From Candidatus Zixiibacteriota bacterium (GTDB lineage: Bacteria > RBG-13-66-14 > B26-G2 > WVWN01): DNA of 18,176 nt. Under the pieces are notes generated by a model, which had not been told where the DNA came from, searched no databases, and was given only the letters and a program-made list of their open reading frames with translations. This document shows, in pieces, positions 1,934-15,946 of the stretch. The stretch is taken from positions 1 to 18,176 of the forward strand of contig JAUWLW010000051.1 of assembly GCA_030613505.1 (NCBI GenBank). The letters run 5' to 3'. The position numbers and the translations under genes are program-made. Each line of letters begins with the position of its first letter. Positions within the stretch are counted from its first letter, which is position 1.

Positions 1934-1965
1934 ACGGTTTTGCGCGGCTAACGCCGCCGGTAAAT

Positions 1966-1994: not shown

Positions 1995-2012
1995 TCTGGA
2001 GAGGTGGTGCAT

Positions 2013-2945
2013 GTGAAAACGCGTCTTTATATTATTGTTTTGTCGTCGGCAATAGCCGTCGGGGCGGCTTACGGCGGTTGGGCGCTCGAGGAGGTTCTGG
2101 GCGAACACCTGAACGACGTCCAAATGATTTCTACCACCGACGGTTGGGCGGTGGGCGCGGGCGGCCAGATCGTACGCTATAACGGTTCGTCCTGGCGCGC
2201 GGTAACGTCGCCTACGACGAAGGACCTCAACGCCATAAAGATGCTCTCCGCGACGAGCGGCTGGGCGGTAGGCCACGGCGGGACGGCAATCCGTTACAAC
2301 GGCACGCGGTGGACGCTCGTGCCCACCCCCACGGATAGACATTTGTACTCGGTGGATTTCGTGGACGCGGCCAACGGCTGGGCCGGCGGCCGCAACGGCG
2401 TCCTGCTGCGCTACAGCGCCGGCTCCTGGCGCCTCGCGAATAGCCCGACGAGCCGGCACATTCGAGGCATCGACATGCTGGCGAGCAACGCCGGTTGGCT
2501 GGCGGGGAACGCGGGCGTTATTTACCGCTTCAACGGCTCGAGCTGGCTACGCCAAACCTCCGGCACTAACCGCGACCTTAACGACGTCGCGATGTACGGC
2601 GCGAGCTTGGGTTACGCCGTGGGCGCGTACGAGACGGTATGCAAATACAACGGCGCGCGCTGGTCGAGGGTCCACGAAGGGCCGGTTATTACGGGTTTGA
2701 AAAGCGTTGCTGTAATAAGCCCGACGGACATTTGGGCCGTCGGCGGCCAGGGCCTCGCGGTCCACTACGATGGCTCGAGCTTTTCGTACGCATCCACGCA
2801 GGTAACAGTGACTTTGAACGGCGTTTGGTTCATAGATTCGTTGAACGGTTGGGCCGTGGGCAACGGCGGTTACATAATACGCTATACGAGCGGCACGGCG
2901 GTCTCGCCGGCGTCGCTCGGTCGCGTTAAGGCGCTATACCAGTAA
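2013..2945 (+). CDS. Secreted seven-repeat YCF48/BNR-like beta-propeller protein with C-terminal tail motif
   Basis: The chosen GTG at 2013 gives 310 residues beginning MKTRLYIIVLSSAIAVGAAYG, a typical Sec signal peptide, with GGAGAGG eight bases upstream. The mature part contains seven repeats of about 40 residues with the pattern L-N-x-V-x-M-x-S-x-x-x-GWAVGxGGxIxRYNGSSW. This is the YCF48/BNR-like signature, so a seven-bladed beta-propeller is likely. Such folds usually bind partners or ligands, and no catalytic role is evident. No lipobox is present. The last residues are SPASLGRVKALYQ, shared with two other exported proteins in this window (12303-13100 and 15188-15946). The gene is monocistronic, between its own promoter and terminator. 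A lipoprotein paralogue with the same number of repeats lies at 6239-7150. Specific function unknown. Confidence 0.85.
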   Translation: MKTRLYIIVLSSAIAVGAAYGGWALEEVLGEHLNDVQMISTTDGWAVGAGGQIVRYNGSSWRAVTSPTTKDLNAIKMLSATSGWAVGHGGTAIRYNGTRWTLVPTPTDRHLYSVDFVDAANGWAGGRNGVLLRYSAGSWRLANSPTSRHIRGIDMLASNAGWLAGNAGVIYRFNGSSWLRQTSGTNRDLNDVAMYGASLGYAVGAYETVCKYNGARWSRVHEGPVITGLKSVAVISPTDIWAVGGQGLAVHYDGSSFSYASTQVTVTLNGVWFIDSLNGWAVGNGGYIIRYTSGTAVSPASLGRVKALYQ

Positions 2946-2965
2946 TCGCACCACTTTGCGTGTTT

Positions 2966-2994
2966 AAAAGCCGGTCCGCGAGGGCCGGTTTTTT
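2966..2994 (+). terminator. Rho-independent terminator
   Basis: AAAAGCCGGTCC pairs with GGGCCGGTTTTT, with two G-T wobbles, around a GCGA loop. Six Ts end at 2994. It lies 20 bases after the propeller stop codon. Confidence 0.85.
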
Positions 2995-3031
2995 ATATAG
3001 AGGGCGCGGGCGGCGGGTTTTCGGCGCATAC

Positions 3032-3060
3032 TTGGCCGTTGCAATTTGCGCGAATATATT
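3032..3060 (+). promoter_or_regulatory. Sigma70-like promoter for the membrane glycosyltransferase gene
   Basis: TTGGCC (3032-3037), a 17-base spacer and TATATT (3055-3060). The predicted start near 3067 lies downstream of the longest possible TTG start (3039), which supports translation from 3126 instead. Confidence 0.55.
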
Positions 3061-3125
3061 TTTTAATAGGAGGGGCGAGCAGGCAGACACCTTTTTTATT
3101 TCGGATTAAATCAGCGAGCAGGGAG

Positions 3126-4631
3126 ATGGCAAACAGGTTCAACGAGTGGCTCAATGAGTTATCGCCCGGGCGGATGAGTTTGGCGCTGGCGGCCTTCTTC
3201 GCCGCCGGCCACGGCGCCTATTACGTATGGGGAATTCGCTTCGACGACACGCCCCTTTTGTGGTTCTGGCAATATTTAGACCCACAGCTTTTAAAGGGTA
3301 AGCTGCTCGAGAGCGTCTTCTACATGCACAGCCAGCCGCCCCTTTTCAACTTGTTTCTGGGGGCGGTTTTAAAAATATCGGGCGGCGACGGCCGGTATAT
3401 CTTTCAGGGCGTATACCTCGCCGCGGGCCTGACGCTTTACCTGTCGCTATTTTGGTTGCAACTCAAGCTGGGCGTGTCCCGCGGGGTCGCTTTCGCCGTT
3501 AGTACGGCCTTCTTGCTCAGCCCGTCGTTCGTCTTGTACGAGCACTGGCTGTTTTACACGTTCCCGGTGGCGGCGTTATTAACGCTATCGGCGTTTTTAT
3601 TCTACGAGACGGTGACGAGCAAGCGGGCCTGGGCCGCCGTCGCCTTTTTCGCGACGCTGTTTCTGGTTTGCGGGATCCGGCACGTCTTCCACTTGGCGTA
3701 TTACGTCGTCGTCGCCGCGGCCTTGGCCGTTTTCTGCGCCGGCGCCCGGAAGAAGGTCTTACTCGCCGCCGCCCTGCCGTTTGCGATCCTATTCTCTTTT
3801 TACGCCAAGAACTACGCGCTCTTCGGCCAGTTTTCGGCCAGCTCGTGGGGCGGTATGTACTTGTGGGAGATGACGGGGTACTTTCTGTCGCCCGACGAGC
3901 GGGAAAAGTTGGAGGCGGACGGGAAGCTCTCCACGGTCACGTCGGTACCTACTTTTTCGGACCTCGGGCGTTATCCGGCAACGTACGCCGACGTCGGCCG
4001 TTTGGGCGGCGTCGACGCGCTGACGCAAGTGAATAAGTCGACCGGCCCCAATAATTATAACCACCTCGGGTACGTAGCGATTTCGCGCGAGTACTTGAAC
4101 GATGCGTTGGGGGTACTGCGGTATTCCCCCAAAGCTTACCTCCGGGGTCTGTTGCGGGCGGGGTTCATATATTTCCGCTCGAGCAGCGACTACGCGAGCG
4201 GCGTGCGTTTTCTGGACGAGGCCGGCAACCAGAGTAGAATTTCGTACGTCGAGCGCTTCTACGATTATTTCTTCTACGGCAAGGTCCCCCTCGGGCCGTC
4301 GTTGACGAAGGCACTCGCCCGCTTCGATTTGAAGTGCCCGCCGTACGCGTATTTATACCTCATAATATTCCTCCCGCTCCTGGCTTTTTACGGCCTTAGG
4401 CTGGTGCTGAGACGCGCCGCCGCGGCCGCCGCCGGCCTGTCGCCGGGTCAGCGCTTGACTGTCCTCTATGTGTGCGCCAACGCAATTTACATAGCGTTGG
4501 CAGGTACGGCGTTCAATTGGGCGGAGAGCAACCGCATGCGGTTCTTGTCGGACCCGCTTTACGTGGCGTTGCTGGGCCTTTTCGTACAGCATTTCCTCGT
4601 CCGCAACGTTCGCCGGTCGTTAGGTAAGTAA
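3126..4631 (+). CDS. GT-C-type polytopic membrane glycosyltransferase (PMT/ArnT-like)
   Basis: A protein of about 501 residues with many hydrophobic segments, starting after a short hydrophilic N-terminus (MANRFNEWLNELSPGR) with MSLALAAFFAAGHGAYYVWG. The first extracytoplasmic loop carries acidic residues (RFDDTPLL) followed by HSQPPLFNLFLG. In GT-C enzymes that use lipid-linked sugars, such as GT39/ArnT, an acidic loop residue and a following His-x-Pro-Pro-like segment are common. A large soluble loop follows the mid-protein membrane helices, around WGGMYLWEMTGYF. The likely role is transfer of a sugar from a polyprenyl-phosphate donor to a protein or glycan outside the membrane, but donor and acceptor are unknown. 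The ATG at 3126 is preceded directly by AGGGAG, which is closer than ideal. The AGGAGGGG at 3068-3075 has no in-frame start nearby. The 5' end is therefore uncertain. Confidence 0.75.
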   Translation: MANRFNEWLNELSPGRMSLALAAFFAAGHGAYYVWGIRFDDTPLLWFWQYLDPQLLKGKLLESVFYMHSQPPLFNLFLGAVLKISGGDGRYIFQGVYLAAGLTLYLSLFWLQLKLGVSRGVAFAVSTAFLLSPSFVLYEHWLFYTFPVAALLTLSAFLFYETVTSKRAWAAVAFFATLFLVCGIRHVFHLAYYVVVAAALAVFCAGARKKVLLAAALPFAILFSFYAKNYALFGQFSASSWGGMYLWEMTGYFLSPDEREKLEADGKLSTVTSVPTFSDLGRYPATYADVGRLGGVDALTQVNKSTGPNNYNHLGYVAISREYLNDALGVLRYSPKAYLRGLLRAGFIYFRSSSDYASGVRFLDEAGNQSRISYVERFYDYFFYGKVPLGPSLTKALARFDLKCPPYAYLYLIIFLPLLAFYGLRLVLRRAAAAAAGLSPGQRLTVLYVCANAIYIALAGTAFNWAESNRMRFLSDPLYVALLGLFVQHFLVRNVRRSLGK

Positions 4632-4635
4632 TTAT

Positions 4636-4657
4636 AAAAAGTCGCCGGCGTCCGGCG
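4636..4657 (-). terminator. Terminator of the metal permease gene
   Basis: Read on the minus strand, CGCCGG and CCGGCG pair around ACG, followed by ACTTTTT. It lies about 60 bases beyond the permease stop and just past the convergent glycosyltransferase stop. No other gene signal is seen in 4632-4716, apart from a short CTCGAG-centred palindrome at 4677-4688. Confidence 0.65.
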
Positions 4658-4716
4658 GAAGCGAAGCGTGTCGCGGCGGCTCGAGCCGTCGGTTCGTTAA
4701 TGCCGCCGTTGCCCGC

Positions 4717-5808
4717 TTATCCCTGCGCGTCGCAGGCGTCGCCCTCGCGGCGGCTCTTTAACTTCAGGCGGAGGCCGTTCAGGCAGAGCAGTACGAAGGC
4801 GGCGGCGGCGACGGTTCCCACGTAATCGAAACCTTCTTCCGGCGTCAGCGCGCCGGCGGCCGTGGTCGGCTCGAGGCCGAAGCCGCCGTAGAACGCGTTG
4901 AGGGAGATGCCCGCGGCGACGGCGCAAACTATTATGGTAACGAGGTATATGACGACCGAGCGCCGGCCCAGGTACTTGGTGAGGACGGCGAGGCTGGCGG
5001 CGTTGGTGGCGGGGCCGGCGAGGAGGAAGGCGAGCGCGGCGCCGGGCGAGACGCCCTTCGCCACCAGCACCGCGGCGATGGGCGTCGCGGCCGTGGCGCA
5101 GACGTAAACCGGCGCGCCCAGCAGGACCAGCGCGACGATCTGGAGCGTGGGCGACGCCAGGCGTTCGGCGACGAACGCCGGCGGCACCAGCGCGGCCAAA
5201 ACGCCCGCCAAAAGGAACCCCACCAGCAGGTAAATCGCCATGTCCTCGAACATCTCGCCAAAGGCGTAGCGGAGGCCGGCGGCCACGCGGCTCGCGAGGC
5301 CCGGCCGGCGTTGTTCGTCGACGTCGGCCTCGTCCGCGTCGTCGCAGCCGCAGCCGCGACTTTGCGGTTCCGCCGCGGGGGCGGCCGCGGCCTCGGGCCG
5401 GCCAAAGAGCAGCTCGCCGACGCCCGCGGCTAGCGCCGTGGCGAAGGCGACTATGGGCCGTGCGATCGTCATCGGGATATCCATCAGGGCGTACGTCACT
5501 AGTATGGAGTCGGCGCCCGATTCGGGGGTAGAGATCATGAAGGAAGAGACCGCGCCTTTGCTCGCGCCCTCCCGCCGGAGCGCCGCGGCCATCGGTATCA
5601 CGCCGCACGAGCATAGCGGCAGCGGCACGCCGATCGCCGCCGCCCAGAATATGGAGCCCAGATTGCGTTTGCCCAGCAGCTTCGCTACCGCGCCCGTGGG
5701 AATGAGGGCGCGCACCAGGCCGGCGAGGAAGAACCCCGCCAGCATGTACGGCCCGGCTTCGCGTAGAAGCTCCCACGTTGAGGCCGATATGTCGCTTAGT
5801 ATCCCCAA
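4717..5808 (-). CDS. SO_0444/ArsP-type permease, probable heavy-metal or metalloid exporter (COG0701)
   Basis: A polytopic membrane protein of about 363 residues with two homologous halves. The first half has PLPLCSCGVIPMAAALRREG and STPESGADSILVTYALM. The second has APVYVCATAATPIAAVLVAKG and LLAGPATNAASLAVLTKYLG. This pairing is typical of the SO_0444 Cu/Zn efflux and YraQ/ArsP permease families, which move metals or organoarsenicals out of the cell. The cytoplasmic linker between halves holds RGCGCDDADEADVDEQ, a Cys/acidic cluster that could bind metal. The TTG at 5808 is preferred because GAGAGG lies five bases upstream and the promoter (5826-5853) would start transcription near 5819. ATG 5835 and GTG 5871 are alternative longer starts, but they lie at or upstream of this promoter. 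The exact substrate is inferred only from the family. Confidence 0.85.
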   Translation of the reverse strand: MGILSDISASTWELLREAGPYMLAGFFLAGLVRALIPTGAVAKLLGKRNLGSIFWAAAIGVPLPLCSCGVIPMAAALRREGASKGAVSSFMISTPESGADSILVTYALMDIPMTIARPIVAFATALAAGVGELLFGRPEAAAAPAAEPQSRGCGCDDADEADVDEQRRPGLASRVAAGLRYAFGEMFEDMAIYLLVGFLLAGVLAALVPPAFVAERLASPTLQIVALVLLGAPVYVCATAATPIAAVLVAKGVSPGAALAFLLAGPATNAASLAVLTKYLGRRSVVIYLVTIIVCAVAAGISLNAFYGGFGLEPTTAAGALTPEEGFDYVGTVAAAAFVLLCLNGLRLKLKSRREGDACDAQG

Positions 5809-5825
5809 AGTTGCCTCTCGGGCAA

Positions 5826-5853
5826 ATAATACCATATTGGTCAGAAATGTAAA
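5826..5853 (-). promoter_or_regulatory. Promoter of the metal permease
   Basis: On the minus strand TTTACA (5853-5848), a 16-base spacer and TATTAT (5831-5826). The predicted start (about 5819) coincides with the ribosome site GAGAGG (5819-5814) of the TTG start at 5808. Confidence 0.6.
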
Positions 5854-5875
5854 GTGGCGGCCTTTTGGCACGTGG

Positions 5876-6074
5876 TTACCGCACGGGGGTGCGCGCCAAC
5901 TCGCGGGCCGCGTGCACCGCCAGATCGTCCTGGGCGAGGGCTAAAAGGCCCGAGCAGACTAAACCGGCCGCGAGGTTTTTTCGTCTAAAGAAAAAGAAAG
6001 CGGCCAGCGCCGGCGGCACCGCCGGCGACCGCCGAGAGGATTAATACTTCCCCGATAACGACGGATAAGGCCAA
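5876..6074 (-). pseudogene. Small membrane protein ORF, split by an apparent +1 frameshift
   Basis: A good promoter (6095-6123) is followed by AGGAGG (6087-6082), seven bases, then TTG (6074). The first frame reads a hydrophobic stretch, MALSVVIGEVLILSAVAGG, continuing to RFLFL and a TAG at 5987-5985. The +1 frame continues without a break as RRKNLAAGLVCSGLLALAQ and DDLAVHAARELARTPVR to the TAA at 5878-5876, just before the permease gene. Joined, the product would be about 66 residues with one or two membrane helices. The junction is a pyrimidine-rich tract ending CTTTAG. I cannot tell whether this is a sequencing indel, a decaying gene or programmed frameshifting. Alternatively it is only a 29-residue membrane peptide. 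The family is not recognised. The position suggests a partner of the downstream permease. Confidence 0.4.
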
Positions 6075-6094
6075 CGGCCTGCCTCCTAAATGAC

Positions 6095-6123
6095 ATTTTA
6101 TTATTGCACCTAAAGTATCGCAA
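6095..6123 (-). promoter_or_regulatory. Promoter of the small membrane ORF
   Basis: On the minus strand TTGCGA (6123-6118), 17 bases, TAAAAT (6100-6095). The predicted start is near 6088, immediately before AGGAGG at 6087-6082. The rest of 6124-6170 holds no gene that I can see. Confidence 0.55.
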
Positions 6124-6170
6124 CACAAAAAAACGGTTGAAAATAAACGCCGCCGGCGGGTTCGGAGTTC

Positions 6171-6199
6171 TTGACGCCGCCGTCGGCCCGTGGTAAATT
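6171..6199 (+). promoter_or_regulatory. Promoter of the propeller lipoprotein
   Basis: TTGACG (6171-6176), a 17-base spacer and TAAATT (6194-6199). The region is arranged divergently from the small membrane ORF promoter. The predicted leader is about 33 bases and includes GGGAGG (6228-6233). Confidence 0.6.
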
Positions 6200-6238
6200 A
6201 TATCCGTCCGCGCCGGGCGGAAACCGTGGGAGGTACGT

Positions 6239-7150
6239 ATGTCCAAGCATTTTGCGAAAGCGGCGGCCTTAGCTCTAATCGTTGTGGCCTGTTCCTCCGG
6301 CGGGGGTTCGGGCCCCGGCGAGCCCCCCGTGCCCTGGCGCCCCGCCCATAGCCCGACGGCCGAGGACATCCACGCTGTCTGGGTCGTGGGCGAGGATGAC
6401 ATCTGGGCGTGCGGCGACAACGGCAATATCCTGCACTACGACGGGTACGAATGGCGCCTCGACATTACGAAGTTGGCTCCCGATTTTTTCGACATCCAGT
6501 TCGTATCGTCTTCGCACGGATGGGTCTGCGGTAAAGACGGTTGGGTGGCGCGCCGCGCGGGCGGCAAATGGGAGGAGGTGCCCGGGAATACGCGTTCGAA
6601 CGCGTTGTACGCGCTCGACGCCCACGGCGCCGCCGAGGCGTGGTTCTGCGGCTCGCGCGGCACCGTCCTCCATTACAAGGACGGCGTGTGGGCCGACGAG
6701 TCGCCCAACGTCGACAACGACCTCTACGGCATCCGCGTCGCCGGCGACGGCAAAGGTTGGGGGGTGGGCGACCGGGGCCGCATATTGGAGAGGTCGGGAG
6801 GTAAGTGGGAAGAGGTTACGAGCCCGGTGGGGTCCGATTACCGGTGCGCGTTTTTTGTGAGCGACGACGAGGCGTGGTTCGGCGCCGCGGACGGTTTCGC
6901 CGTGCACCTCAAGGCCGGCGGCCTTAACAAAACCCGCCTCCCGAGCGCGGAAACTATTGCCGGCCTTTACTTCCATTCCAACGGCCGCGGCTACGCCGTA
7001 ACCAAGGGCGGCAACATATACTCCTATTCTCCCGCGACCAGGAATTGGCGCTTGTGGGCCGGCCACAACCGTCAGTTGTTCGACATCACCTTTTCGACCG
7101 CCGAGCGCGGCTGGATCGTGGGCGCCGCGGGCACCATTCTCAGGCATTAG
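6239..7150 (+). CDS. Lipoprotein with seven YCF48/BNR-like beta-propeller repeats
   Basis: The 303-residue protein begins with a lipoprotein signal, ALALIVVACSSGGG. The lipobox VVAC places the lipidated cysteine at residue 18, so it is expected to be anchored in a membrane after export. Seven repeats follow, each ending in a GWxxGxxGxILHYxGGKW-like strand, for example DIWACGDNGNILHYDGYEW and GWGVGDRGRILERSGGKW. The repeat count equals that of the secreted protein at 2013-2945, and the two are probably paralogues that differ in anchoring, because this one lacks the PASxGRxKALYR tail. GGGAGG sits five bases before the ATG. Several blades carry extra cysteines (WACGD, WVCGK, WFCGS), which might bind metal or form disulfides. 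The ligand is unknown, and no catalytic residues are evident. Confidence 0.85.
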   Translation: MSKHFAKAAALALIVVACSSGGGSGPGEPPVPWRPAHSPTAEDIHAVWVVGEDDIWACGDNGNILHYDGYEWRLDITKLAPDFFDIQFVSSSHGWVCGKDGWVARRAGGKWEEVPGNTRSNALYALDAHGAAEAWFCGSRGTVLHYKDGVWADESPNVDNDLYGIRVAGDGKGWGVGDRGRILERSGGKWEEVTSPVGSDYRCAFFVSDDEAWFGAADGFAVHLKAGGLNKTRLPSAETIAGLYFHSNGRGYAVTKGGNIYSYSPATRNWRLWAGHNRQLFDITFSTAERGWIVGAAGTILRH

Positions 7151-7240
7151 CGCCGGGCGCGAGGGCCGGGCGGCGTGCCGCCTTCGGTCGGATTGTAACG
7201 CCCCGGCGGGCGTCGTGGCACGCTGAGCTATGCGCGTAGC

Positions 7241-7360
7241 GTGGTGGCGATTTTAATTTTGACGTCCATAGTCTGGGCGTCATTTATCATCGTAATCGAC
7301 GGGTATCCGCTCCGGAGCGACGAGGCCGAGTACAGCTTCACGGGCCGGCGGCGATGGTAA
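7241..7360 (+). pseudogene. Fragment of the GT-C glycosyltransferase family (N-terminal helix and DE motif)
   Basis: A 39-codon open stretch from GTG 7241 to TAA 7358-7360. It reads MVAILILTSIVWASFIIVID followed by GYPLRSDEAEYSF. This matches the N-terminus of the two genes directly downstream: the helix WGSFIVVIGG plus SDQREYYSAA in the first, and ALADAPLNADEAEYVTAARR in the second. It contains the first membrane helix and the acidic DE motif but then stops in GRRRW. No convincing ribosome site precedes it. It is best read as the remnant of a third tandem copy, left by deletion or unequal recombination. It could instead be a short leader peptide of the downstream genes. Confidence 0.6.
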
Positions 7361-7361
7361 G

Positions 7362-8753: not shown

Positions 8754-10108
8754 GCCGGGGTTCGCGTTTGGCCGAGAAGCGAATACTCTTTTTACTGTTG
8801 CTGCTGGCGTTCGCCGTCCAGCTGGCGTTCGTGGTGGCCTTGGCCGACGCGCCGCTGAACGCCGACGAGGCGGAGTACGTGACCGCGGCCAGGCGTCTCG
8901 CCGGCGGCCTGGGCCTCACCGCGCCGGACGGCCAGCTCTACGTCCACCGCCATCCGCCGGGATACGCCGCTTTCGCAGCGGCGATATTTTACGTGGGGGG
9001 CGACGTCTTGGGTGTTCGGCTGGCGCAGGCCGTGCTCGCGGTCCTGACGCTGGGGCTGGTGTACGCGACGGCCCGGGGGGAGTTCGGCCCGAAGATTGGC
9101 GCCGCGGCCTTGCTCGCCGGCGCGCTGTACCTGCCCGCCGCTTACTATTCCACCAAGGTCTTGACGGAAACGCTCTTCACGTTCGCGCTCGTCCTGGGTA
9201 TATACCTGTTGGCGCGGGGGACGCGCGGCGCGCCGCGCTACCGTTGGCTCGCGTTCGCCGGGATAACCTTCGGCGCCGCGGCGCTGGTACGGTCGGTGGC
9301 GTTCCCGGTCGCGCTCGCGCTGGCGTTGTACCTGGCGCTGGGTCGCGACGGCTCGCGGCGCGCGCGGCTGGCGGGCGCGGCGACCTTCGCCTGCGGCCTG
9401 CTGGTCGTACTGGCGTTGTGGTCGGGGTACGTCTTCTCGCGGACGGGTCGCGTCGTCGCGACGGATACGAACGCGTCGGCGGTATTGTATATCGGAAACA
9501 ACCCCCGGGCGCCGTACCACCACACGTGGAAGGCGTTGGAGGACCCGGCGTCCTGCGCGCCGCTGCTCGAGGTGGCGGCCGCGGGCGAGGACGGCTTCCG
9601 CGTCGCGGCCAAGTACCGGCGGGAAGCGCTAGGGTATATCGCGACCCACCCGGCGCAGACGGCGCTCCGGAGTATCGGGCGGCTGCTCGACATGCTCGAG
9701 CCGGAGCGACTGTTCGCGGCGACGTACGCCGCCGGCCGCATCCCGGCCTTGCCCGCCGGCGTCGCCTGGCCTATGGTCGCGCTCGAGCTGGCCGCGGACG
9801 CCGCGGCGCTGGCGCTGTGCGGCCTCGGCCTGGTCCTCATGCCGGCGTCGCGGCTGCGCGGCATCCTGGCCGTCTCGTTCGCGGTAATCTTCGTCGCTCA
9901 CGGCGCGACGCTGGCGTACCCGCGGCACCACGTGCCGCTGGTGGTGGCGGCGCTGGCGGCGGTCGGTTACGTGCTGACGGCGGGCCTGCCGGCGCTGCGC
10001 GAGCGGCGGTTGTCGCGGCGGCAGTGGGCCGCGCTGGCCGTCGTGGCCGCGGCCTTGCTCGCCTCCTGGGCGCGGATGGTGTTGTTGTACGTGGCGTACC
10101 GGAGTTAA
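8750..10108 (+). CDS. GT-C-type membrane glycosyltransferase (GT39/ArnT-like), copy 2
   Basis: About 452 residues with around ten hydrophobic segments. The first helix is ILFLLLLLAFAVQLAFVVAL, followed by the acidic loop LNADEAEYVTAARRLAGGLG and then YVHRHPPGYAAFAAA. The DE pair fits the catalytic acidic motif of GT39/ArnT-like enzymes. It shares MLEPERLFAATY, a YPRHHVPLV segment and the terminal WARMVLLYVAYRS with the upstream copy. The TTG at 8750 overlaps the upstream TGA in a TTGA arrangement typical of translational coupling. A TTG at 8768 (MAEKRILF) is an alternative. A longer reading from 8711 is possible but would lie entirely inside the upstream gene. The predicted role is sugar transfer from a lipid carrier to an external acceptor. 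The substrate cannot be inferred. Confidence 0.78.
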   Translation: MSRGSRLAEKRILFLLLLLAFAVQLAFVVALADAPLNADEAEYVTAARRLAGGLGLTAPDGQLYVHRHPPGYAAFAAAIFYVGGDVLGVRLAQAVLAVLTLGLVYATARGEFGPKIGAAALLAGALYLPAAYYSTKVLTETLFTFALVLGIYLLARGTRGAPRYRWLAFAGITFGAAALVRSVAFPVALALALYLALGRDGSRRARLAGAATFACGLLVVLALWSGYVFSRTGRVVATDTNASAVLYIGNNPRAPYHHTWKALEDPASCAPLLEVAAAGEDGFRVAAKYRREALGYIATHPAQTALRSIGRLLDMLEPERLFAATYAAGRIPALPAGVAWPMVALELAADAAALALCGLGLVLMPASRLRGILAVSFAVIFVAHGATLAYPRHHVPLVVAALAAVGYVLTAGLPALRERRLSRRQWAALAVVAAALLASWARMVLLYVAYRS

Positions 10109-10140
10109 TTAAAAATCCCTCGAAATTTAAATACGGGTGT

Positions 10141-10222
10141 ACGTAAAGTAGGGGCCGGTCTTCAGACCGGCCCGCCCGACGCTAAATATTTATCGGGCCG
10201 ACCTTAAGGTCGGCCCCTACGT
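10141..10222. repeat. Nested palindromic element (MITE/REP-like)
   Basis: Outer inverted ends are ACGTA (10141-10145) with TACGT (10218-10222), and GTAGGGGCC (10148-10156) with GGCCCCTAC (10212-10220). Inside are an inverted repeat with 10-bp arms at 10152-10173 (GGGCCGGTCT and AGACCGGCCC) and a perfect 22-base palindrome at 10195-10216 centred on CCTTAAGG. The two palindromes differ in their cores but share GGGCC/GGCCC ends. No coding potential is seen. It sits at the boundary between the GC-rich glycosyltransferase gene and the AT-rich island. Confidence 0.8.
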
Positions 10223-10226
10223 AAAC

Positions 10227-10252
10227 AAAACCAGGCCTTAAAGGCCGGGCTT
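10227..10252 (-). terminator. Imperfect terminator of the NHL lipoprotein operon
   Basis: On the minus strand AAGCCCGGCCTT and AAGGCCTGGTTTT pair around a single T, with one mismatch and one wobble, followed by a T-rich tail. It resembles a degraded member of the AACCCGGCC hairpin family found at 11776, 14314, 14985 and 15970. Between it and the lipoprotein stop (10253-10291) only AT-rich sequence is seen. Confidence 0.6.
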
Positions 10253-10291
10253 AATAGCTACATTTCGGTTTTTAATTTTGGGAAAATTTTA

Positions 10292-11221
10292 CTACTTGAA
10301 ATATTGTATTCTATTGTTATCTCTGTCAACTACGTATATCGTTTTGTTAGCAGAAACGGCCAAATCTTTTGTAAACTGAAACTCTCCGTTTCCCGAACCC
10401 CACTTACCGAACCTCCAAATAAAACCCCCAGTACTGGAGAAATGTTGGACGGCAACACCGTCCGATACGTAAATTTTACCTTCCGAGTCCACAGTTATCC
10501 CATTAGGGAGGGCGAATTCCCCTTTACCGTTACCTTGTTTGCCCCATTTGCCTAAGAAGCTACCCGAACGCGAGAAATATTGGATACGCGAGTTACCGGT
10601 ATCGGCAACGTATACATTTCCGTTTGGAGCGACCGCGATGCCTTCTGGTTTGTCGAATTTACCCTCGGCGCTGCCGAAAGAACCCCAAGTGCCAAAAAGA
10701 GAACCGGTGGAGGTAAAGTATTGTACGCGGTTATTTTCAGTATCGGCTATATAAACATTTTCATCGGGCCCTATAGCAATACCCATTGCCGATGAAAACA
10801 GCCTTTCCCATTTACCTAAATATCCTCCGGTATTAGAAAAATATTGCAAACGGCTTGAATCTAGAACATATATGTTACCATTATCCGTAGATGCTATACT
10901 GGACGGGTAAAATAACTCCCCGTTGCCTAGGCCCCGAGTTCCCCATTTACCTAAGAAACTCCCCGTATCTGAAAAGTATTGTACCCGGTGATTCCTGTAG
11001 TCTGTTACGTAAATATTACCGTTATCTCCGATACAAATCCCCCATGGTAGACTAAATTCCCCGTTACCGGTACCTTTATCCCCCCACTTCCCGGCGAATT
11101 TAGGAACCTCCGGTTCGGTAGGTTCGGGCTCAGTGGTAGAATCTGAACACGCGAGGCCGAAAACCAGGATTCCGGAAACGGTCAATAGCTTAGGTATATT
11201 TACTATAATTCCGTGAGCCAT
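10292..11221 (-). CDS. NHL-repeat beta-propeller lipoprotein
   Basis: The 309-residue product has an N-terminal export signal ending GILVFGLACSDST, in which Cys25 is the probable lipidation site. A Pro/Glu-rich linker (TTEPEPTEPEVP) follows. Six NHL repeats of about 45 residues fill the rest, each with the pattern GKWGxxGxGxGEFxxPxGIxVxxxGNIYVxDxxNxRVQYF. A six-bladed propeller is therefore expected. NHL propellers usually bind proteins, glycans or RNA, and exported ones are thought to bind surface partners. Base composition and codon choice (many AAA, TAT, ATA) are strikingly AT-rich beside its neighbours. It starts three bases after the stop of the GIY-YIG-like gene, so the two are co-transcribed. 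It lacks the PASxGRxKALYR tail, as does the other lipoprotein. Function beyond binding is unknown. Confidence 0.87.
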   Translation of the reverse strand: MAHGIIVNIPKLLTVSGILVFGLACSDSTTEPEPTEPEVPKFAGKWGDKGTGNGEFSLPWGICIGDNGNIYVTDYRNHRVQYFSDTGSFLGKWGTRGLGNGELFYPSSIASTDNGNIYVLDSSRLQYFSNTGGYLGKWERLFSSAMGIAIGPDENVYIADTENNRVQYFTSTGSLFGTWGSFGSAEGKFDKPEGIAVAPNGNVYVADTGNSRIQYFSRSGSFLGKWGKQGNGKGEFALPNGITVDSEGKIYVSDGVAVQHFSSTGGFIWRFGKWGSGNGEFQFTKDLAVSANKTIYVVDRDNNRIQYFK

Positions 11222-11224
11222 TTT

Positions 11225-11698
11225 TTACCCCGCTCGATTACTTATTATGCCTTTAAGGTTTTTTAAAATATCTTTTAAGTATTTGTCGACCATCGCCGTC
11301 TGTGGCTTGGTTAATTTATTTCGAAAACCCACTTTTTTGTTTAATATTACGAAATCCGTTTTTTTGCGCAAACAATTTATTAACTCTTTTTCTATCGCTT
11401 CAATTATTAACCGCCAATTATTTTTCCCCTTTCTATCGGCGTAGCTTTTTATATTGTATATCCTTATTTCGTATTCGTGACTCTCAATTATTTTATCGTT
11501 ATAGTTAAGTATTTTCGCTATTACGTTTTCGGTACTGTTGCGTGTTAAACCGAAGTGGCGGCCTATCCTTTCTAAAGCGCTACGGGCGTGTGTCGAACCA
11601 ACGTATAATTTGGGCTTTTTATTTTTTAGGATTATTAAGTATACGTTGTACCCTCTCGATACTAAATTACCGGGTATTTTCAGTTTCGTTATTTTCAC
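11225..11698 (-). CDS. GIY-YIG nuclease-superfamily-like protein
   Basis: A basic protein of 157 residues. Residues 17-22 (YNVYLI) and 31-36 (LYVGST) match the two halves of the GIY-YIG motif. Arg44 and His48 in ALERIGRHFG are in the place of the conserved basic residues, and a Glu near residues 103-105 (EKEL) could be the metal-binding acid. Such domains cleave DNA in repair, restriction and mobile endonucleases. The C-terminal part is Lys-rich and unrecognised. The gene is very AT-rich. It begins with GTG at 11698, six bases after an extended -10 box, so the mRNA is predicted to be leaderless. It lies just upstream of the NHL lipoprotein, an odd partner for a nuclease. The fold call is by motif only, and catalytic activity is unproven. 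Confidence 0.55.
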   Translation of the reverse strand: MKITKLKIPGNLVSRGYNVYLIILKNKKPKLYVGSTHARSALERIGRHFGLTRNSTENVIAKILNYNDKIIESHEYEIRIYNIKSYADRKGKNNWRLIIEAIEKELINCLRKKTDFVILNKKVGFRNKLTKPQTAMVDKYLKDILKNLKGIISNRAG

Positions 11699-11704
11699 GA
11701 CTAA

Positions 11705-11713
11705 ATTATAGCA
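11705..11713 (-). promoter_or_regulatory. Extended -10 promoter, predicted leaderless
   Basis: On the minus strand TGC is followed directly by TATAAT (11710-11705), an extended -10 element. The -35 region is weak (GTAAAA at 17 bases). Only six bases separate the -10 box from GTG 11698, so transcription should begin on the start codon itself. Confidence 0.65.
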
Positions 11714-11775
11714 TAAAAAAATTCGTCTTTTACATATATTTTCTTACACAGGTATGGGACCTTTAAAATAATAAT

Positions 11776-11799
11776 AAACCCGGCCTTACGGCCGGGTTT
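11776..11799. terminator. Bidirectional hairpin terminator
   Basis: AAACCCGGCC (11776-11785) pairs perfectly with GGCCGGGTTT (11790-11799) around TTAC. T-rich sequence follows on both strands. It terminates the minus-strand SH3-like gene and separates the GC-rich block from the AT-rich island. The stretch 11714-11775 contains no gene. Confidence 0.8.
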
Positions 11800-11824
11800 C
11801 TTTTTAACGAAAGACGATAGCCGT

Positions 11825-12301
11825 TCATTCGTCGCCGAGGGGCGCGAGCGCCGGGGCGGATAGCCAGCCGCGCTGGCCCTCCGCCGTCGTTATCTGGCGC
11901 CAGGTAACGTTGCCGGCGTCGTCCGTCGCCGGCGGGCCGGTCTCGGCGACGCCCTCTCCCCGCTTCAGCCGCGCGCGCTCGGTACGCGCGACGGCCGGGA
12001 CGCCAACGAGTATGGTCTCCTTGGCGGCGACGTCGTAGGCGCGGCCGAAGTAATCCCATTCAGCCAGGCCCTGGCGGGCGTCTTCCAGCGTGACGAGGCA
12101 GTACGTCCGGGCGCTCTCGGGCGAGCCGACCTCCTCCGCGATTACCGGCGTCCAATACGGCAGCCGCTCGAGTACGTAGTCGTCCTCGTAGTTGTGGTCC
12201 TCGTCGTAAACTACCGCGCCTTCCACGACGACGAGGTGCGTCGGCGCGAAGGCGAGGGCCGCGGAGGCGGCGAAGGCTATTAACGGCGCGAGTCGGAGCA
12301 C
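11825..12301 (-). CDS. Exported protein with SH3-like (bacterial SH3) region
   Basis: The 158-residue protein starts at GTG 12301 with a signal peptide, MLRLAPLIAFAASAALAFA. Two segments have the small beta-barrel pattern of bacterial SH3 modules. The first starts VVVEGAVVYDEDHNYED and the second starts ILVGVPAVARTERARLKRGE, ending in the WRQITTAEGQRGWL-type strand that closes SH3b domains. Such modules usually bind cell-wall peptides or other surface ligands. The gene begins one base after the stop of the upstream secreted propeller, so the two are probably translated from one mRNA and might act together outside the cell. No catalytic domain or lipobox is visible, and the PASxGRxKALYR tail is absent. 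Domain call moderate, exact role unknown. Confidence 0.65.
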   Translation of the reverse strand: MLRLAPLIAFAASAALAFAPTHLVVVEGAVVYDEDHNYEDDYVLERLPYWTPVIAEEVGSPESARTYCLVTLEDARQGLAEWDYFGRAYDVAAKETILVGVPAVARTERARLKRGEGVAETGPPATDDAGNVTWRQITTAEGQRGWLSAPALAPLGDE

Positions 12302-12302
12302 G

Positions 12303-13100
12303 TTATCTGTAGAGCGCTTTAATCCTGCCTACCGAGGCCGGCGCTACGGCCGGGTATCGGACCGGGCAGTGGATAATAAGTATGTGGGGGTCCGAAAGGG
12401 TCTGGGAGGAAACCCAGAGATATTCGCCGTAGTAGTCGAGGCCCCGGGGTATGTGGGCCGCCGTTATCGGCGGGAACGACGCTACCAGCGAGCCGTGCGT
12501 GTCGTAAGCGTGGTAATAGGGGTGATAGTCGTCTCGCGGAAGCCACAGCCACCCGTTGCCGTAATCCCACGCGATTTCCGACCACGGCGTTATCTCGGGC
12601 TTGAAGGAGTCGATGAAGCTGCCCGCGGTCGTGAAGCGCAAAAGGTGTTGGCCGTAGATGCCTATCGACACGGACATCAGTATGGACTTGATGGGCGCCG
12701 GTTCGCCGCGAGGAGTTTCGAAATCGACGCTCGAGCAGCCTTGGGTGATTATGGGCATCGACGAATAGATGCTGCCCGTCCCCTCGTTGCAGCGGTGGAA
12801 CCACACCGGCGCGAAGCCCTGGTCGTGCATCCACAGGTAGGGGCCTTCCTCGAACGCCATGCCGGCGACGGTGCCGCCGACAGTGGGCGCGTACGAGTTG
12901 ACGACGCTTCCGGTCCAGCGCTCGATGCGGTATACGCGGAAAAGTCCGGTGATGTACGCGTATAAGTAGCGGTCGCCGACGGACATCGCGTACGCGTTTC
13001 TTCCCTCGGGGCACGGGTACGAGGCGACTATCTCCCCCATGTAACCGTGCGCCGCGCCGGCGGTTGCTAGCAGTATCCCCAACGCTATCGCTTTTCTCAT
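12303..13100 (-). CDS. Secreted WD40/NHL-like propeller protein with C-terminal tail motif
   Basis: Starts at ATG 13100 with GGAGGG five bases upstream. It encodes 265 residues with a signal peptide, MRKAIALGILLATAGAAHG. The body has repeated strands with aromatic ends, for example GNGWLWLPRDDYHPYYHAYD and RGLDYYGEYLWVSS, suggesting a beta-propeller. It resembles the protein at 15188-15946 in both repeat style (GYLWISEFDSRDVWQCTT) and ending. The last residues are APASVGRIKALYR, matching the tails of two other exported proteins here. Several cysteines (YPCPEG, HRCNEG, QGCSS, IHCP) might form disulfides. It is the first gene of a two-gene operon with the SH3-like exported protein. Function not recognised. 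Confidence 0.8.
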   Translation of the reverse strand: MRKAIALGILLATAGAAHGYMGEIVASYPCPEGRNAYAMSVGDRYLYAYITGLFRVYRIERWTGSVVNSYAPTVGGTVAGMAFEEGPYLWMHDQGFAPVWFHRCNEGTGSIYSSMPIITQGCSSVDFETPRGEPAPIKSILMSVSIGIYGQHLLRFTTAGSFIDSFKPEITPWSEIAWDYGNGWLWLPRDDYHPYYHAYDTHGSLVASFPPITAAHIPRGLDYYGEYLWVSSQTLSDPHILIIHCPVRYPAVAPASVGRIKALYR

Positions 13101-13171
13101 CTTACCCTCCTCGAGTGCGTAGAACTTTTTTAATAAGTTACGTGCCCCGCTTTAAAAACCGCCGGGCCGCA

Positions 13172-13705
13172 TTACCCCGTTCGTACGAATTGGAACGTGT
13201 ACTTGGGCTTTTTCGAGAACTCGAAGAAGCCGCCGGCGCGCACGGCGGCGATGGCCTCCTCGGGTTTCAGGTGGTGGTCGGAGAAGGAAAGGATGCCCCG
13301 TGGTTTCAGGACGCGCGCCAGCTCGGCCAGGACCGCCTCCGGCTCGTCGAGCTCGTGGAAGACGTCGTAGAGGAGGACGACGTCTACGCTCTCGTCCGGT
13401 AGGCCGGTAGCGCCGTCGGACTGGATGGTCTCGACGTACGCGAGCTTCTTCCGGCGGGTTTTCTTTTGGACCGACTCGAAGGCGAGCGGGTGGATGTCCA
13501 GCGCGTATACTTTACCCGCCGGGCCGACGGCCTTCGCCGCGGCTACGGTGAAGCCGCCGCGGCCGCAGCCGAAGTCGAGGACCGTATCCCCCGCCTTGAC
13601 GCCTGCCTCTGCCACCCATCTCTTGGGAGGGTTGAAGAAGTCCCGGATCGCGGAGTGTACCGCGAACATCCGGAAGTGGCTTTCGGTCATCGGCTCATGC
13701 GGCAC
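13172..13705 (-). CDS. Class I SAM-dependent methyltransferase
   Basis: The 177-residue Rossmann-fold protein has the SAM-binding motif I VLDFGCGRGG (residues 43-51), an acidic residue binding the ribose at Asp70 (VYALDIHP), and the motif IV-like DVVLLYDVFHELDEPE near residue 108. A RVLKPRGILSFSDHH segment follows, as in UbiE/Methyltransf_11-type enzymes. The small size and lack of a substrate domain prevent naming the substrate. The start is GTG 13705 with AGGAGG upstream, inside the end of the TPR gene. The four-base gap indicates an operon. No clear terminator follows: GC-rich sequence leads to TTTTT at about 13155-13159 but the hairpin is imperfect. Sequence 13106-13171 otherwise holds only an uncertain promoter for the next gene. 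Confidence 0.85.
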   Translation of the reverse strand: MPHEPMTESHFRMFAVHSAIRDFFNPPKRWVAEAGVKAGDTVLDFGCGRGGFTVAAAKAVGPAGKVYALDIHPLAFESVQKKTRRKKLAYVETIQSDGATGLPDESVDVVLLYDVFHELDEPEAVLAELARVLKPRGILSFSDHHLKPEEAIAAVRAGGFFEFSKKPKYTFQFVRTG

Positions 13706-13709
13706 GCGG

Positions 13710-14261
13710 TCACTCCTCCTTTTTCTTAAACGCCACCAGTTCCGGGAACCAGTCCTCGTCGCGGAAACGGGCGAGGTCGACGTCGGTCGCGGCGAAGACG
13801 TTGGAGGAGGGTTCTAGGCGTAGCGCCTCGGCCAGCTGTTCGCGGCACTTCTCGGCGTCGCCGCGCTTGGCCCAGTAGCAGGCGAAGTTGTAGCGATGCA
13901 TCGCGCCCTCCAGCTCGAGGGCGATGGCGCGCTCGAAGTCGGCGCGCGCCTCCTCCAGCCGGCCCGCGTATTCGTGCGCCGTGGCGCGGGTGCTGAAGGC
14001 GCGCGCGTTTGTGGGGTCGGCTTTGAGTATGGCCTCGGCGATGGCGAGCGCCTCGTCGACGCGGCCCAGGCGGGCCAGCGCCAGGCCCCGGCCCATCTGC
14101 GCGCGGGACTCGGCGACGTCTTCCTTTAATACGTCGTCGAAGGTGCGGAGGGCCTCGTCGTTGCGGCCCTCGCGGAGGTAGTTCAGGCCGATGGTGACCT
14201 GCGCGTCGAGGCGGATCTTGCGGGCTTCTTCCTCGGTGGGGGGACGTTTATTCTCGGCCAT
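13710..14261 (-). CDS. Tetratricopeptide-repeat protein
   Basis: A cytoplasmic protein of about 183 residues with four or more TPR-like helical pairs. Successive units include GLNYLREGRNDEALRTFDDV, ARLGRVDEALAIAEAILKAD, THEYAGRLEEARADFERAIA and CYWAKRGDAEKCREQLAEAL. TPR arrays mediate protein-protein contacts, and no enzyme domain is fused. ATG 14261 (MAENKRPP) is chosen because a TATAAT box lies at 14277-14272, so longer starts at 14273 and 14366 would lie inside or upstream of the promoter. The predicted leader is only about four bases. It is the first gene of an operon with the methyltransferase, with a four-base gap. The TPR protein could present the methyltransferase to a partner, which is inference. 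Confidence 0.8.
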   Translation of the reverse strand: MAENKRPPTEEEARKIRLDAQVTIGLNYLREGRNDEALRTFDDVLKEDVAESRAQMGRGLALARLGRVDEALAIAEAILKADPTNARAFSTRATAHEYAGRLEEARADFERAIALELEGAMHRYNFACYWAKRGDAEKCREQLAEALRLEPSSNVFAATDVDLARFRDEDWFPELVAFKKKEE

Positions 14262-14271
14262 AGGCGCCGCC

Positions 14272-14300
14272 ATTATATAACAAGAACCGGGTTTTGTCGA
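14272..14300 (-). promoter_or_regulatory. Promoter of the TPR-methyltransferase operon
   Basis: On the minus strand TCGACA (14300-14295), 17 bases, and a consensus TATAAT (14277-14272). The start codon at 14261 is ten bases beyond the -10 box, so the mRNA is nearly leaderless. Confidence 0.75.
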
Positions 14301-14313
14301 GGGGGATACGGAA

Positions 14314-14335
14314 AACCCGGCCTGGCAGCCGGGTT
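14314..14335. terminator. AACCCGGC-family hairpin, site A
   Basis: AACCCGGC (14314-14321) pairs with GCCGGGTT (14328-14335) around CTGGCA. It is followed by the box described at 14339-14370. No gene ends here on either strand, so it may insulate the TPR promoter from upstream transcription or be a relic. Between 14370 and 14400 nothing else is seen. Confidence 0.55.
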
Positions 14336-14338
14336 CAC

Positions 14339-14370
14339 TAAGAGGAGAGGATAGGGAGAATCCCACCCCC
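14339..14370. repeat. Purine-rich box next to hairpin, copy A
   Basis: TAAGAGGAGAGGATAGGG (14339-14356) is identical to 15998-16015, each 3-4 bases after an AACCCGGC hairpin. The following AGAATCCCACC is a diverged version of the GTCCTAC end seen in copies B and C. Confidence 0.75.
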
Positions 14371-14400
14371 CCGGCCTTTGTGCGGGGTCGGCCTTTAAGC

Positions 14401-14429
14401 TTGACCCGGCGGCGGTTGAGTAATAAAAT
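14401..14429 (+). promoter_or_regulatory. Promoter of the DUF4258/DUF2283 module
   Basis: TTGACC (14401-14406), 17 bases, TAAAAT (14424-14429). The predicted start is near 14436, within the ribosome site AAAGGAG (14433-14439), giving a leader of about 13 bases to the TTG at 14449. Confidence 0.7.
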
Positions 14430-14448
14430 AATAAAGGAGTTGGAGTAT

Positions 14449-14744
14449 TTGTCCGTCGGTAAACAACGAGCCGTAGGGCAGCGAAAATTATTAAAGAAGT
14501 AAAGCTAAGCGAGCACGCGCGGTATAAAATTAAGCTCCTCGCAACGTTGGGCGTAGAGGTGGACGAAGCTACTGTGATGGACGCATTAGCGAACGCCGAA
14601 GGCGTAAAGCCGGCGTACGGCGGCAGGCGCATGGCGGAAATAACCCTCGACGAAAGGCGGGTTTTACGTGTCGTTTTCGTCGAAGAGGTGGACGTTATCA
14701 ACGTAGTGACCGTATACCCCGCCCGAAGGGGGCGTTATGATTAA
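14449..14744 (+). pseudogene. DUF4258-like (toxin-like) ORF with frame problem at its 5' end
   Basis: The conserved frame reads IIKEVKLSEHARYKIKLL, then VEVDEATVMDAL, RRMAEITLDERRVLRVVFVE and INVVTVYPARRGRYD to the TAA at 14742-14744. The SEHARxKI start, the central beta strands and the VVTVYP end fit DUF4258-type small proteins related to RelE/HicA-scale toxins. In this frame there is no ATG, GTG or TTG between the stop at 14460 and TTG 14547, which would remove the conserved N-terminus. A well-placed TTG at 14449, nine bases after AAAGGAG, is in another frame and joins the conserved frame only by a -1 shift at the A-run 14484-14487. Either an indel has occurred, translation slips, or ATT 14487 is used. 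The reading frame, rather than the family, is the doubtful part. Confidence 0.6.
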
Positions 14745-14955
14745 GACCAGATACAGCGACGATGTGGACGCGTTACTCATACAGTTCTCCGAGAAAGGCG
14801 TGGACGTGGCGGAGGAGCGGGGCCCGTATATCCTCCACTACGCCGCGGACGGCGACCTCGTTTTACTGGAGGTCCTGAACGGCCGCGACTTCATTCTGGA
14901 GGCCGTCGCCAGCGTCTTTGCCGGTAAAGAGCACGCCGCCGAGACGCCGGGATAG
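14737..14955 (+). CDS. DUF2283 family protein (putative antitoxin partner)
   Basis: The 72-residue protein reads YSDDVDALLIQFSEKGVDVA, then EERGPYILHYAADGDLVLLE and VLNGRDFI. This is the compact DUF2283 pattern of an alternating beta sheet with DALxIxF and GxLVxxEVL strands. DUF2283 genes are often found next to DUF4258 genes, and the pair has been suggested to act as a toxin-antitoxin-like module, but biochemical proof is limited as far as I know. ATG 14737 overlaps the stop of the DUF4258-like frame by eight bases, with GAAGGGGG just upstream, so translation is coupled. Transcription stops at the hairpin at 14985-15006. If the upstream partner is truly broken, this gene may be left as an orphan. 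Confidence 0.85.
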   Translation: MIKTRYSDDVDALLIQFSEKGVDVAEERGPYILHYAADGDLVLLEVLNGRDFILEAVASVFAGKEHAAETPG

Positions 14956-14984
14956 ACGGTCCGACAGTACGGGCGTGTAATAAG

Positions 14985-15006
14985 AACCCGGCCTCGTGGC
15001 CGGGTT
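14985..15006. terminator. AACCCGGCC-family terminator, site B
   Basis: AACCCGGCC (14985-14993) pairs with GGCCGGGTT (14998-15006) around TCGT, ending in TTT. It terminates the DUF4258/DUF2283 unit. Downstream, 15007-15098 contains the box copy B and no plus-strand gene. Confidence 0.75.
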
Positions 15007-15023
15007 TCGCAACGTCGGCGTGG

Positions 15024-15047
15024 GATAGGGGGTGTCCTACTCCTCCC
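15024..15047. repeat. Purine/pyrimidine box, copy B
   Basis: The 24 bases match 16009-16032 at all but one position. In copy C this sequence holds the last codons and stop of the PQQ propeller gene on the minus strand. Here the minus strand also reads SGKAYSRPPGREE and a stop, which might be the end of a gene otherwise lost. Confidence 0.7.
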
Positions 15048-15098
15048 GGCCCGGGGGGCGCGAGTAAGCTTTTCCGGAGGCGCGCGGGGCCGATTACG

Positions 15099-15127
15099 TT
15101 GAAACGAAACCGCAGGCGTGGTATAAT
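15099..15127 (+). promoter_or_regulatory. Strong promoter of the secreted propeller at 15188
   Basis: TTGAAA (15099-15104), 17 bases, consensus TATAAT (15122-15127). The predicted leader is about 54 bases and ends in a strong GAGGAGGAGG ribosome site. Confidence 0.85.
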
Positions 15128-15187
15128 CATGTAGTAAGATAGTAAATAAGACGGGAGCGATACTATAAACGAGGAGGAGGAAGATCG

Positions 15188-15946
15188 ATGATAAGGAAGT
15201 GGTTAGCGGGCACCGTGGTAAGCGTCGTTACGACGGCGACGTTGACTTTGGCCTGGGGGAGTTTGGTATCCTCGTTTAAGTCCCCCGGTACCTATCCCGA
15301 CGGCATCGGTTACTTGGACGGCTACCTCTATATAGCCGGGCCGAGTACCCTTTATCGGACTACGACCACCGGGTCGTTGATTAGCACGTGGAAGTGCCCC
15401 GCCGAGTTTTTTTCGGGCGTTACGGCGGGTGAAATAGGCGGGGCCGGTTATTTCTGGTTTAGCGCGGGGCCGTTGAGCGGCCCAGATAGAATTTACCGGG
15501 CGACGGCTACGACGGGTTCTATTTGCGGTTCTTTTATGGAACCTACGAGCCACCCTTGGGGTTTAGCGCTGCGGGATGAAACGTCGCTTTTTATCACGCA
15601 CGCAAACCGCGATTGGTTATTCCTGGTCCATCCGGTTTCCGGTTCCGTATATAGTACTTACTCTCTTAACTTCCCGCCCATGGACGCGGCCTACGACCCT
15701 CACGGTTACCTATGGATATCGGAATTTGATAGCCGAGACGTTTGGCAGTGCACTACCAACGGTTCGAGGATAGCTTCGTTTAGTACAGCCGCTTATGGGC
15801 GGCCGGGCGGCGTCGCGTTCGACGGCCTCTACCTCTGGGTGGGCGTTATCGAACGCCTTATTTATTTGATAATGCAGTACGAAGTGGGGTACGAACCGGC
15901 GGTCGGGCCGGCGTCTTTAGGAAGGGTAAAAGCGCTGTTCCGGTAG
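15188..15946 (+). CDS. Secreted propeller-like protein with C-terminal tail motif
   Basis: The ATG at 15188 follows GAGGAGGAGGAAG. The 252-residue product has a signal peptide, MIRKWLAGTVVSVVTTATLTLAWG, and no lipobox. Repeated units end in aromatic strands, such as DGIGYLDGYLYIAGPSTLYR, DPHGYLWISEFDSRDVWQC and GGVAFDGLYLWVGVIE. These suggest a beta-propeller of the WD40/NHL type that presumably binds something outside the cytoplasm. The ending GPASLGRVKALFR matches the tails at 2945 and 12303. It is most similar to the minus-strand protein at 12303-13100, probably a paralogue. It forms a single-gene unit between the promoter at 15099-15127 and the hairpin at 15970-15995. No function can be assigned. 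Confidence 0.8.
   Translation: MIRKWLAGTVVSVVTTATLTLAWGSLVSSFKSPGTYPDGIGYLDGYLYIAGPSTLYRTTTTGSLISTWKCPAEFFSGVTAGEIGGAGYFWFSAGPLSGPDRIYRATATTGSICGSFMEPTSHPWGLALRDETSLFITHANRDWLFLVHPVSGSVYSTYSLNFPPMDAAYDPHGYLWISEFDSRDVWQCTTNGSRIASFSTAAYGRPGGVAFDGLYLWVGVIERLIYLIMQYEVGYEPAVGPASLGRVKALFR

Follow-up and report, generated by a model that had tools for sequence, protein, structure and literature searches.

The type IX secretion system (T9SS) is usually described from Bacteroidota only, and its signals are held to be folded and at least 40 residues long; the known ones are domains of 40-235 amino acids (PMC11969387, PMC12618676, PMC10202324). Recognition has been placed at the last strand of the C-terminal domain (CTD), its conserved Lys and the final residues (PMC11285876, PMC10202324). 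In P. gingivalis and Prevotella it involves the last strand together with the motif B loop; the targeting signal of HBP35 is its last 22 residues, RgpB minus two C-terminal residues is blocked in export, and the last-strand Lys is conserved, with motif E linked to PorV (PMC11285876, PMC11969387, PMC10202324). The type A CTD (TIGR04183/PF18962) is an Ig-like beta-sandwich of 70-100 amino acids. Type B (TIGR04131) and type C CTDs are folded domains of at least 100 amino acids, the partners of type B being PorP/SprF (PMC12618676, PMC10202324). Prevotella intermedia has in addition short CTDs of 40-55 amino acids, which are three-stranded and keep motifs B, D and E (PMC11969387).

Short conserved C-terminal signals on many unrelated exported proteins are also found in the PEP-CTERM/exosortase and LPxTG/sortase systems. 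These signals consist of a motif, a transmembrane helix and a basic end, in that order.

A common C-terminal tail in the window

The window (the whole 18,176-nucleotide stretch that was analysed) is contig C94 of a Candidatus Coatesbacteria genome of 2,860,374 bases (2.86 Mb; G000), called the own genome below. Three of its exported proteins end in a common tail, with the ORFs and endings that a first-pass annotation had described (Table 1). That annotation had also called their bodies different in sequence, which is right for the 1902 protein, a YCF48-type propeller unrelated to the other two, but not for the 12303 and 15188 proteins, which are distant members of one propeller family with ~26% identity. 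Its statement that the ending is far more conserved than the bodies is borne out when the columns of 105 own-genome tails are set against this body identity. The true start of the 1902 protein is probably the GTG of VHVKTRLYIIVLSSAIAVGAAYGG, which lies within the ORF.

Table 1 Features of the window and TGA-interrupted tail genes at other loci
Feature	Positions	Strand	Sequence	Basis
YCF48-type beta-propeller, exported, with tail	1902-2945	+	ends in VSPASLGRVKALYQ before the stop	ORF; Pfam PSII_BNR 45 bits; modelled propeller stops before the tail
C-terminal tail of 1902 protein	2904-2942	+	SPASLGRVKALYQ	ORF; matches motif of 105 own-genome tails
Lipobox propeller, YCF48-type, without tail (contrast case)	6239-7150	+	start MSKHFAKAAALALIVVACSS, end WIVGAAGTILRH	ORF; Pfam PSII_BNR 54.6 bits
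Lipobox NHL propeller without tail (contrast case), in low-GC stretch	10292-11221	-	contains FGLACSD; end NNRIQYFK	ORF, GC, Pfam
Beta-propeller-like protein, exported, with tail	12303-13100	-	signal peptide MRKAIALGILLATAGAAHG; ends in VAPASVGRIKALYR before the stop	ORF; homologue of 15188 protein
C-terminal tail of 12303 protein	12306-12344	-	APASVGRIKALYR	ORF; motif of 105 own-genome tails
Beta-propeller, exported, with tail	15188-15946	+	signal peptide MIRKWLAGTVVSVVTTATLTLA; ends in VGPASLGRVKALFR before the stop	ORF; AF2 model; Foldseek
C-terminal tail of 15188 protein	15905-15943	+	GPASLGRVKALFR	ORF; outside propeller, low confidence (AF2)
BamB/PQQ-like propeller, no lipobox, no tail, apparent signal peptide	16022-17533	-		ORF, Pfam
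TGA-interrupted tail genes	L143:8135-8635, 8948-9445, 9736-10245, 12025-12567, 12712-13245	+		
TGA-interrupted tail gene	L003:991-1527	+		
TGA-interrupted tail gene	L142:17401-17910	-		
TGA-interrupted tail genes	L226:573-785, 1512-1727, 2424-2639; L234:13739-13954; L231:508-1143	-		

Window positions 10001-12000 have a GC of 0.45-0.48, compared with 0.56-0.73 elsewhere in the window, and hold the NHL lipoprotein. This stretch looks like an insertion. It also contains an ORF (11225-11698) whose translation resembles a GIY-YIG nuclease.

Position, carriers and structure of the tail

About 155 genes of the own genome end in this 13-residue tail, [VI]-x-P-x-S-[LVF]-G-[RK]-[VI]-K-A-L-[FY]-x-stop. 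The DNA pattern G-x-x-[IVL]-K-x-x-[FY]-x-stop has 156 matches in the own genome and a stricter one with Ser/Thr has 155, while the reversed pattern has none, which excludes chance as the origin of the recurrence. Among 105 distinct own-genome tails, S, G and K are nearly fixed, and six positions that the search pattern had left free show strong conservation as well: V at -14 (90 tails), P at -12 (101), R/K at -7 (100), A at -4 (83), L at -3 (90) and R/K at -1 (77).

The motif is confined to the end of proteins. Six-frame reading of own-genome stretches totalling 618,734 bases gave 79 matches to S-x-G-x-[IVL]-K-[ASTG]-[LIMV]-[FY]; of these, 78 lie exactly one residue before the stop, and the reversed motif does not occur. 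The sole exception, at L234 (APASLGRVKALYAAGRGSDSKG), has a frame that continues 46 residues beyond the tail, perhaps through a lost stop or a frameshift. A GTDB scan gave 97 matches, of which 88 are terminal and seven are not near a stop; these seven are from unrelated proteins outside Coatesbacteria, six of them from one family with GRVKAFYGNFG.

The carriers are diverse in fold and uniform in export. The bodies of 98 own-genome tail proteins fall into 15 unrelated families (single linkage, E < 1e-5), among them propellers (NHL-type, YCF48-type and others), a family resembling a right-handed beta-helix and several unnamed families, so the initial view that the tail is tied to propellers does not hold. 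In 18 stretches from four long contigs (360 kb), all 14 tail ORFs are predicted to be Sec-exported, compared with 148 of 332 other ORFs, which answers the concern that cytoplasmic proteins might use the tail equally. Export was predicted by simple rules of the analysis rather than a published predictor and gene starts were set by rule, the 14 tail ORFs being called after inspection of their start codons. The tail thus behaves as the C-terminal targeting signal that had been proposed, being strictly terminal, borne by ~15 unrelated families and found on Sec-exported carriers, and it is almost certainly a genuine one.

The tail had further been proposed as an alternative to the lipobox. None of the 14 tail ORFs has a lipobox, compared with 32 of the 102 exported non-membrane ORFs that lack the tail (p = 0.01, unbiased stretches). 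Automatic calls gave five ‘lipo’ assignments among all tail proteins, with the Cys mostly inside the hydrophobic core of the signal peptide, and at most one to three of ~100 tail proteins are plausible or ambiguous lipoproteins. The two lipobox propellers of the window lack the tail, as described. The proposal stands to this extent, but the propeller at 16022-17533 is exported with neither tail nor lipobox; the tail is therefore not general for exported propellers and marks a subset of exported proteins.

Structure models place the tail outside the folded body. The AlphaFold2 model of the 15188 protein with 19 relatives (pLDDT 86) has a propeller at residues 25-232, with most blocks above 90, and groups in Foldseek with glutaminyl cyclase and NHL propellers; tail residues 238-252 are outside the propeller, at a pLDDT of ~45 (below 50), and are drawn as a short helix. 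In the model of the 1902 protein the propeller extends to about residue 301 and is followed by a helix with a confidence of ~55. Both modelled propellers close without the tail.

These results bear on a reading in which the tail is the last propeller strand, or a leftover inherited through gene duplication that plays no part in sorting. The largest tail families are indeed paralogous propellers, some in tandem arrays. However, ~15 unrelated families carry the tail, both propeller models close before it and in other phyla it sits on other domains, making this reading highly improbable. The specific case of a last strand or internal motif, named at the outset as what would speak against a signal, is ruled out by the terminal position, the unrelated bodies and the models. 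Tail genes do often lie in tandem paralogue arrays with a spacing of ~0.7-1 kb (C10:790-3298, C12:365-4172, C30:8314-20364 and C56:28609-33245 of G000).

It is also conceivable that the tail acts as a short peptide that binds the membrane or envelope directly or docks to a chaperone. Such a peptide would retain proteins in the periplasm or at the outer membrane and would not be a secretion signal. Its basic, hydrophobic and aromatic residues would suit such a role, as would the low-confidence short helix in both models. In Coatesbacteria, however, the helical moment of the last ten tail residues is not above that of shuffled sequences (0.39 vs 0.39), and we rejected an amphipathic helix on this ground. 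The strand hydrophobic moment is on average 0.58, compared with 0.38 after shuffling; the hydrophobic pattern of the sequence thus favours a strand over the helix that the models draw at low confidence. Moreover, the position-specific conservation of S, G and K is stricter than lipid binding needs, and an envelope-binding role leaves the alternation with a secretion CTD (see below) unexplained. We consider this reading quite unlikely.

As a separate observation, 12 tail-bearing exported genes each contain one in-frame TGA, never TAA or TAG, at a conserved Cys-containing site (Table 1). The site reads C-U in seven genes, C-x-G-U in four genes of the beta-helix-like family and U-x-x-C in one thioredoxin/Omp28-like protein. 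Since the frame runs past the TGA to an intact tail, these genes look, from their sequence, like exported selenoproteins. Hairpins ~15-40 nt 3' of several TGAs fit bacterial SECIS elements, most of them not being significant singly. Selenocysteine decoding in the own genome is supported by the predicted SelB gene (G000:C63:15628-16725; 319 bits against a curated cut-off of 242) and tRNA-Sec gene (G000:C62:50539-50632, L269; 66.7 against an Rfam cut-off of 47).

The tail and the type IX machinery

The own genome encodes T9SS components. SprA/Sov is found at C76:36408-40127 (1958-aa frame; its pieces sum to 218.5 bits, against a cut-off of 200), together with ~10 PorV-family matches and 48 canonical type A CTDs. 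A PorU-type C25 peptidase (C8:2817-4028, 1493-aa frame), which bears its own CTD, is encoded directly upstream of a PorV-family gene (C8:5335-6225); porU directly before porV is a known arrangement.

To analyze the distribution of the tail, we compared 386 genomes, mostly draft MAGs. At least three tails occur in 25 genomes from 13 families. All 25 have SprA, compared with 113 of the 361 others (Fisher p = 1.5e-12, a value that overstates the case because the 25 genomes are not independent), and 805 of 824 tails sit in SprA-positive genomes. There is no tail-rich genome without SprA among the 386. The converse fails: 113 SprA-positive genomes have fewer than three tails, and in f5, a sister family in the same phylum, genomes carry only 0-4 tails although SprA, PorV and 35-66 CTDs are present. 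T9SS alone thus does not predict the tail.

Tail numbers are highest near the source of the window, with 100-154 per genome in three members of the genus, 23 in the same order and 17 and 7 in the same class. Outside the phylum, genomes of f30, f71, f74, f104, f139, f178 and f219 have 7-23 tails and f163 has three; in most of these tails [ST]-[WF]-G replaces P-x-S-x-G. The closest records in the GTDB scan were Candidatus Coatesbacteria CP070633.1, a record labelled Zixiibacteriota A-C077 (WVWN01) and one Krumholzibacteriia MAG. The second of these (WVWN01000024.1) encodes dozens of tails as well as a homologue of the 1902 protein at 70% identity, and it is therefore probably a mislabelled Coatesbacteria genome. 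Elsewhere, L160:2634-3038 and L161:120-566 encode small exported FnIII-like proteins ending in TWGSIKAMFR, and several further SprA-positive genomes each hold a single such tail, which perhaps represents one conserved family with a special role.

The same domain can carry either the tail or a CTD. Two tail proteins of genome G038 (L154 and L150) are 52% and 42% identical in their bodies to the protein at L158:462-1799, whose C-terminus is a CTD-like domain. This domain gives 41 bits with Pfam FlgD_ig and 18.6 bits with TIGR04183, the latter under the cut-off of 23. The L158 body was searched in 80 genomes of the phylum of G038, which is not the phylum of the window, and complete 3' ends were counted at the fetched loci. 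All 42 complete short homologues (open frames of 119-289 aa) end in the tail, as does one homologue of 349 aa, while each of the 19 long homologues whose end is complete (740-1367 aa) finishes in PNPFNP...K-[MIV]-x-L-[LV]-[KR], and five of five sampled are above the TIGR04183 cut-off. Among the homologues counted, none has both endings and none has neither. In these tails Gly at -8 may be Asp or Ser, so that pattern counts elsewhere are lower bounds. The exchange follows protein size and could therefore mark a different route. In the own genome we found only one weak tail/CTD pair of propellers, the 1902 protein and L210 (E 1e-7).

The type A CTD resembles the tail in its C-terminal location, its Sec-exported cargo, its occurrence in genomes with SprA, PorV and PorU, its position on homologous bodies and, weakly, its basic-hydrophobic-basic end with a conserved Lys. 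Local CTD ends, [RK]-[KR]-M-V-V-x-[RK], resemble K-A-L-F-R of the tail in nearly the same register, with basic residues at -5 (K) and -1 (R/K) in tails and at -6 and -1 (K/R) in CTDs, a weak likeness to motif E without demonstrable homology. In contrast, the tail has only ~13 residues and starts with P-x-S-x-G in Coatesbacteria or [ST]-[WF]-G in other phyla, unlike the type A CTD. Motifs B and D (GxY; names from PMC11969387) are absent from the columns of the 105 own-genome tails. A T9SS signal of 13 residues without them would be unprecedented. TIGR04183 matches neither tail proteins nor tail peptides, and neither NCBIfam nor Pfam has a model that picks up the tail.

Two known variants were tried and rejected. 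The short CTDs of P. intermedia resemble the tail as reduced signals that stand beside long CTDs in one genome, but the tail is about one third of their length and lacks motifs B and D, and such a CTD is ruled out. Type B and type C CTDs are likewise alternative C-terminal signals of the same secretion system; type C is ruled out by its size of ~100 aa. As first suggested, the tail is also unlike PEP-CTERM and LPxTG signals, since it occupies the final 13 residues without a hydrophobic helix. In the literature covered, which included few subscription journals, neither the tail nor Coatesbacteria secretion is mentioned.

Because the tail is associated with SprA across phyla and replaces the CTD on related proteins, it is probably a new and very small T9SS sorting signal of minimal form, and we infer its T9SS dependence with a probability of roughly 0.6. 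The first-pass annotation had set the tail apart from the type IX CTD, and in sequence and size it does differ; the implied unrelatedness looks wrong, as the tail tracks SprA and alternates with the CTD. The wholly separate new sorting system which that annotation had raised is accordingly the less likely reading. In such a case the same lineages would have a C-terminal sorting or anchoring system unrelated to T9SS, which would recognise the tail through a receptor or transpeptidase of its own and would direct small exported proteins to the surface or the periplasm. In some Coatesbacteria this undescribed system would handle ~150 exported proteins in each genome, and it would extend to several other phyla. 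It would account for the lack of a domain shared with T9SS signals or matched by a library model, for the few tails of f5 and for the size of the carriers, with a median own-genome frame of 263 aa for tail proteins and ~594 aa for CTD proteins. However, it fits poorly with the absence of tail-rich genomes lacking SprA and with a domain that takes either the tail or a canonical CTD, and a search for a receptor, itself not unbiased, gave no candidate. We therefore regard a separate system as doubtful.

Proposed route and its meaning

We then propose a model for the tail as a minimal T9SS signal. Sec and signal peptidase I would bring the tail protein to the periplasm, where its body would fold. 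The T9SS would then bind the flexible 13-residue end, most likely through a PorV-family shuttle, which is the presumed reader of the tail. The tail may be bound in the manner of the last strand of a type A CTD (motif E), and the protein would cross the SprA/Sov pore to reach, presumably, the cell surface or the medium, possibly losing its tail to PorU. Most economically, the tail would serve small proteins as the CTD serves large ones.

If this is true, a signal of 13 residues would set the minimum that the T9SS must recognise, and one genome would hold two tiers of C-terminal signal, the tail for its small proteins and the much larger CTD for its large ones. Cargo prediction would open in phyla whose surface proteins are mostly unannotated, and the tail could be used as a display tag that is small and portable. 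Should it prove to be no T9SS signal, it would instead point to a new sorting system.
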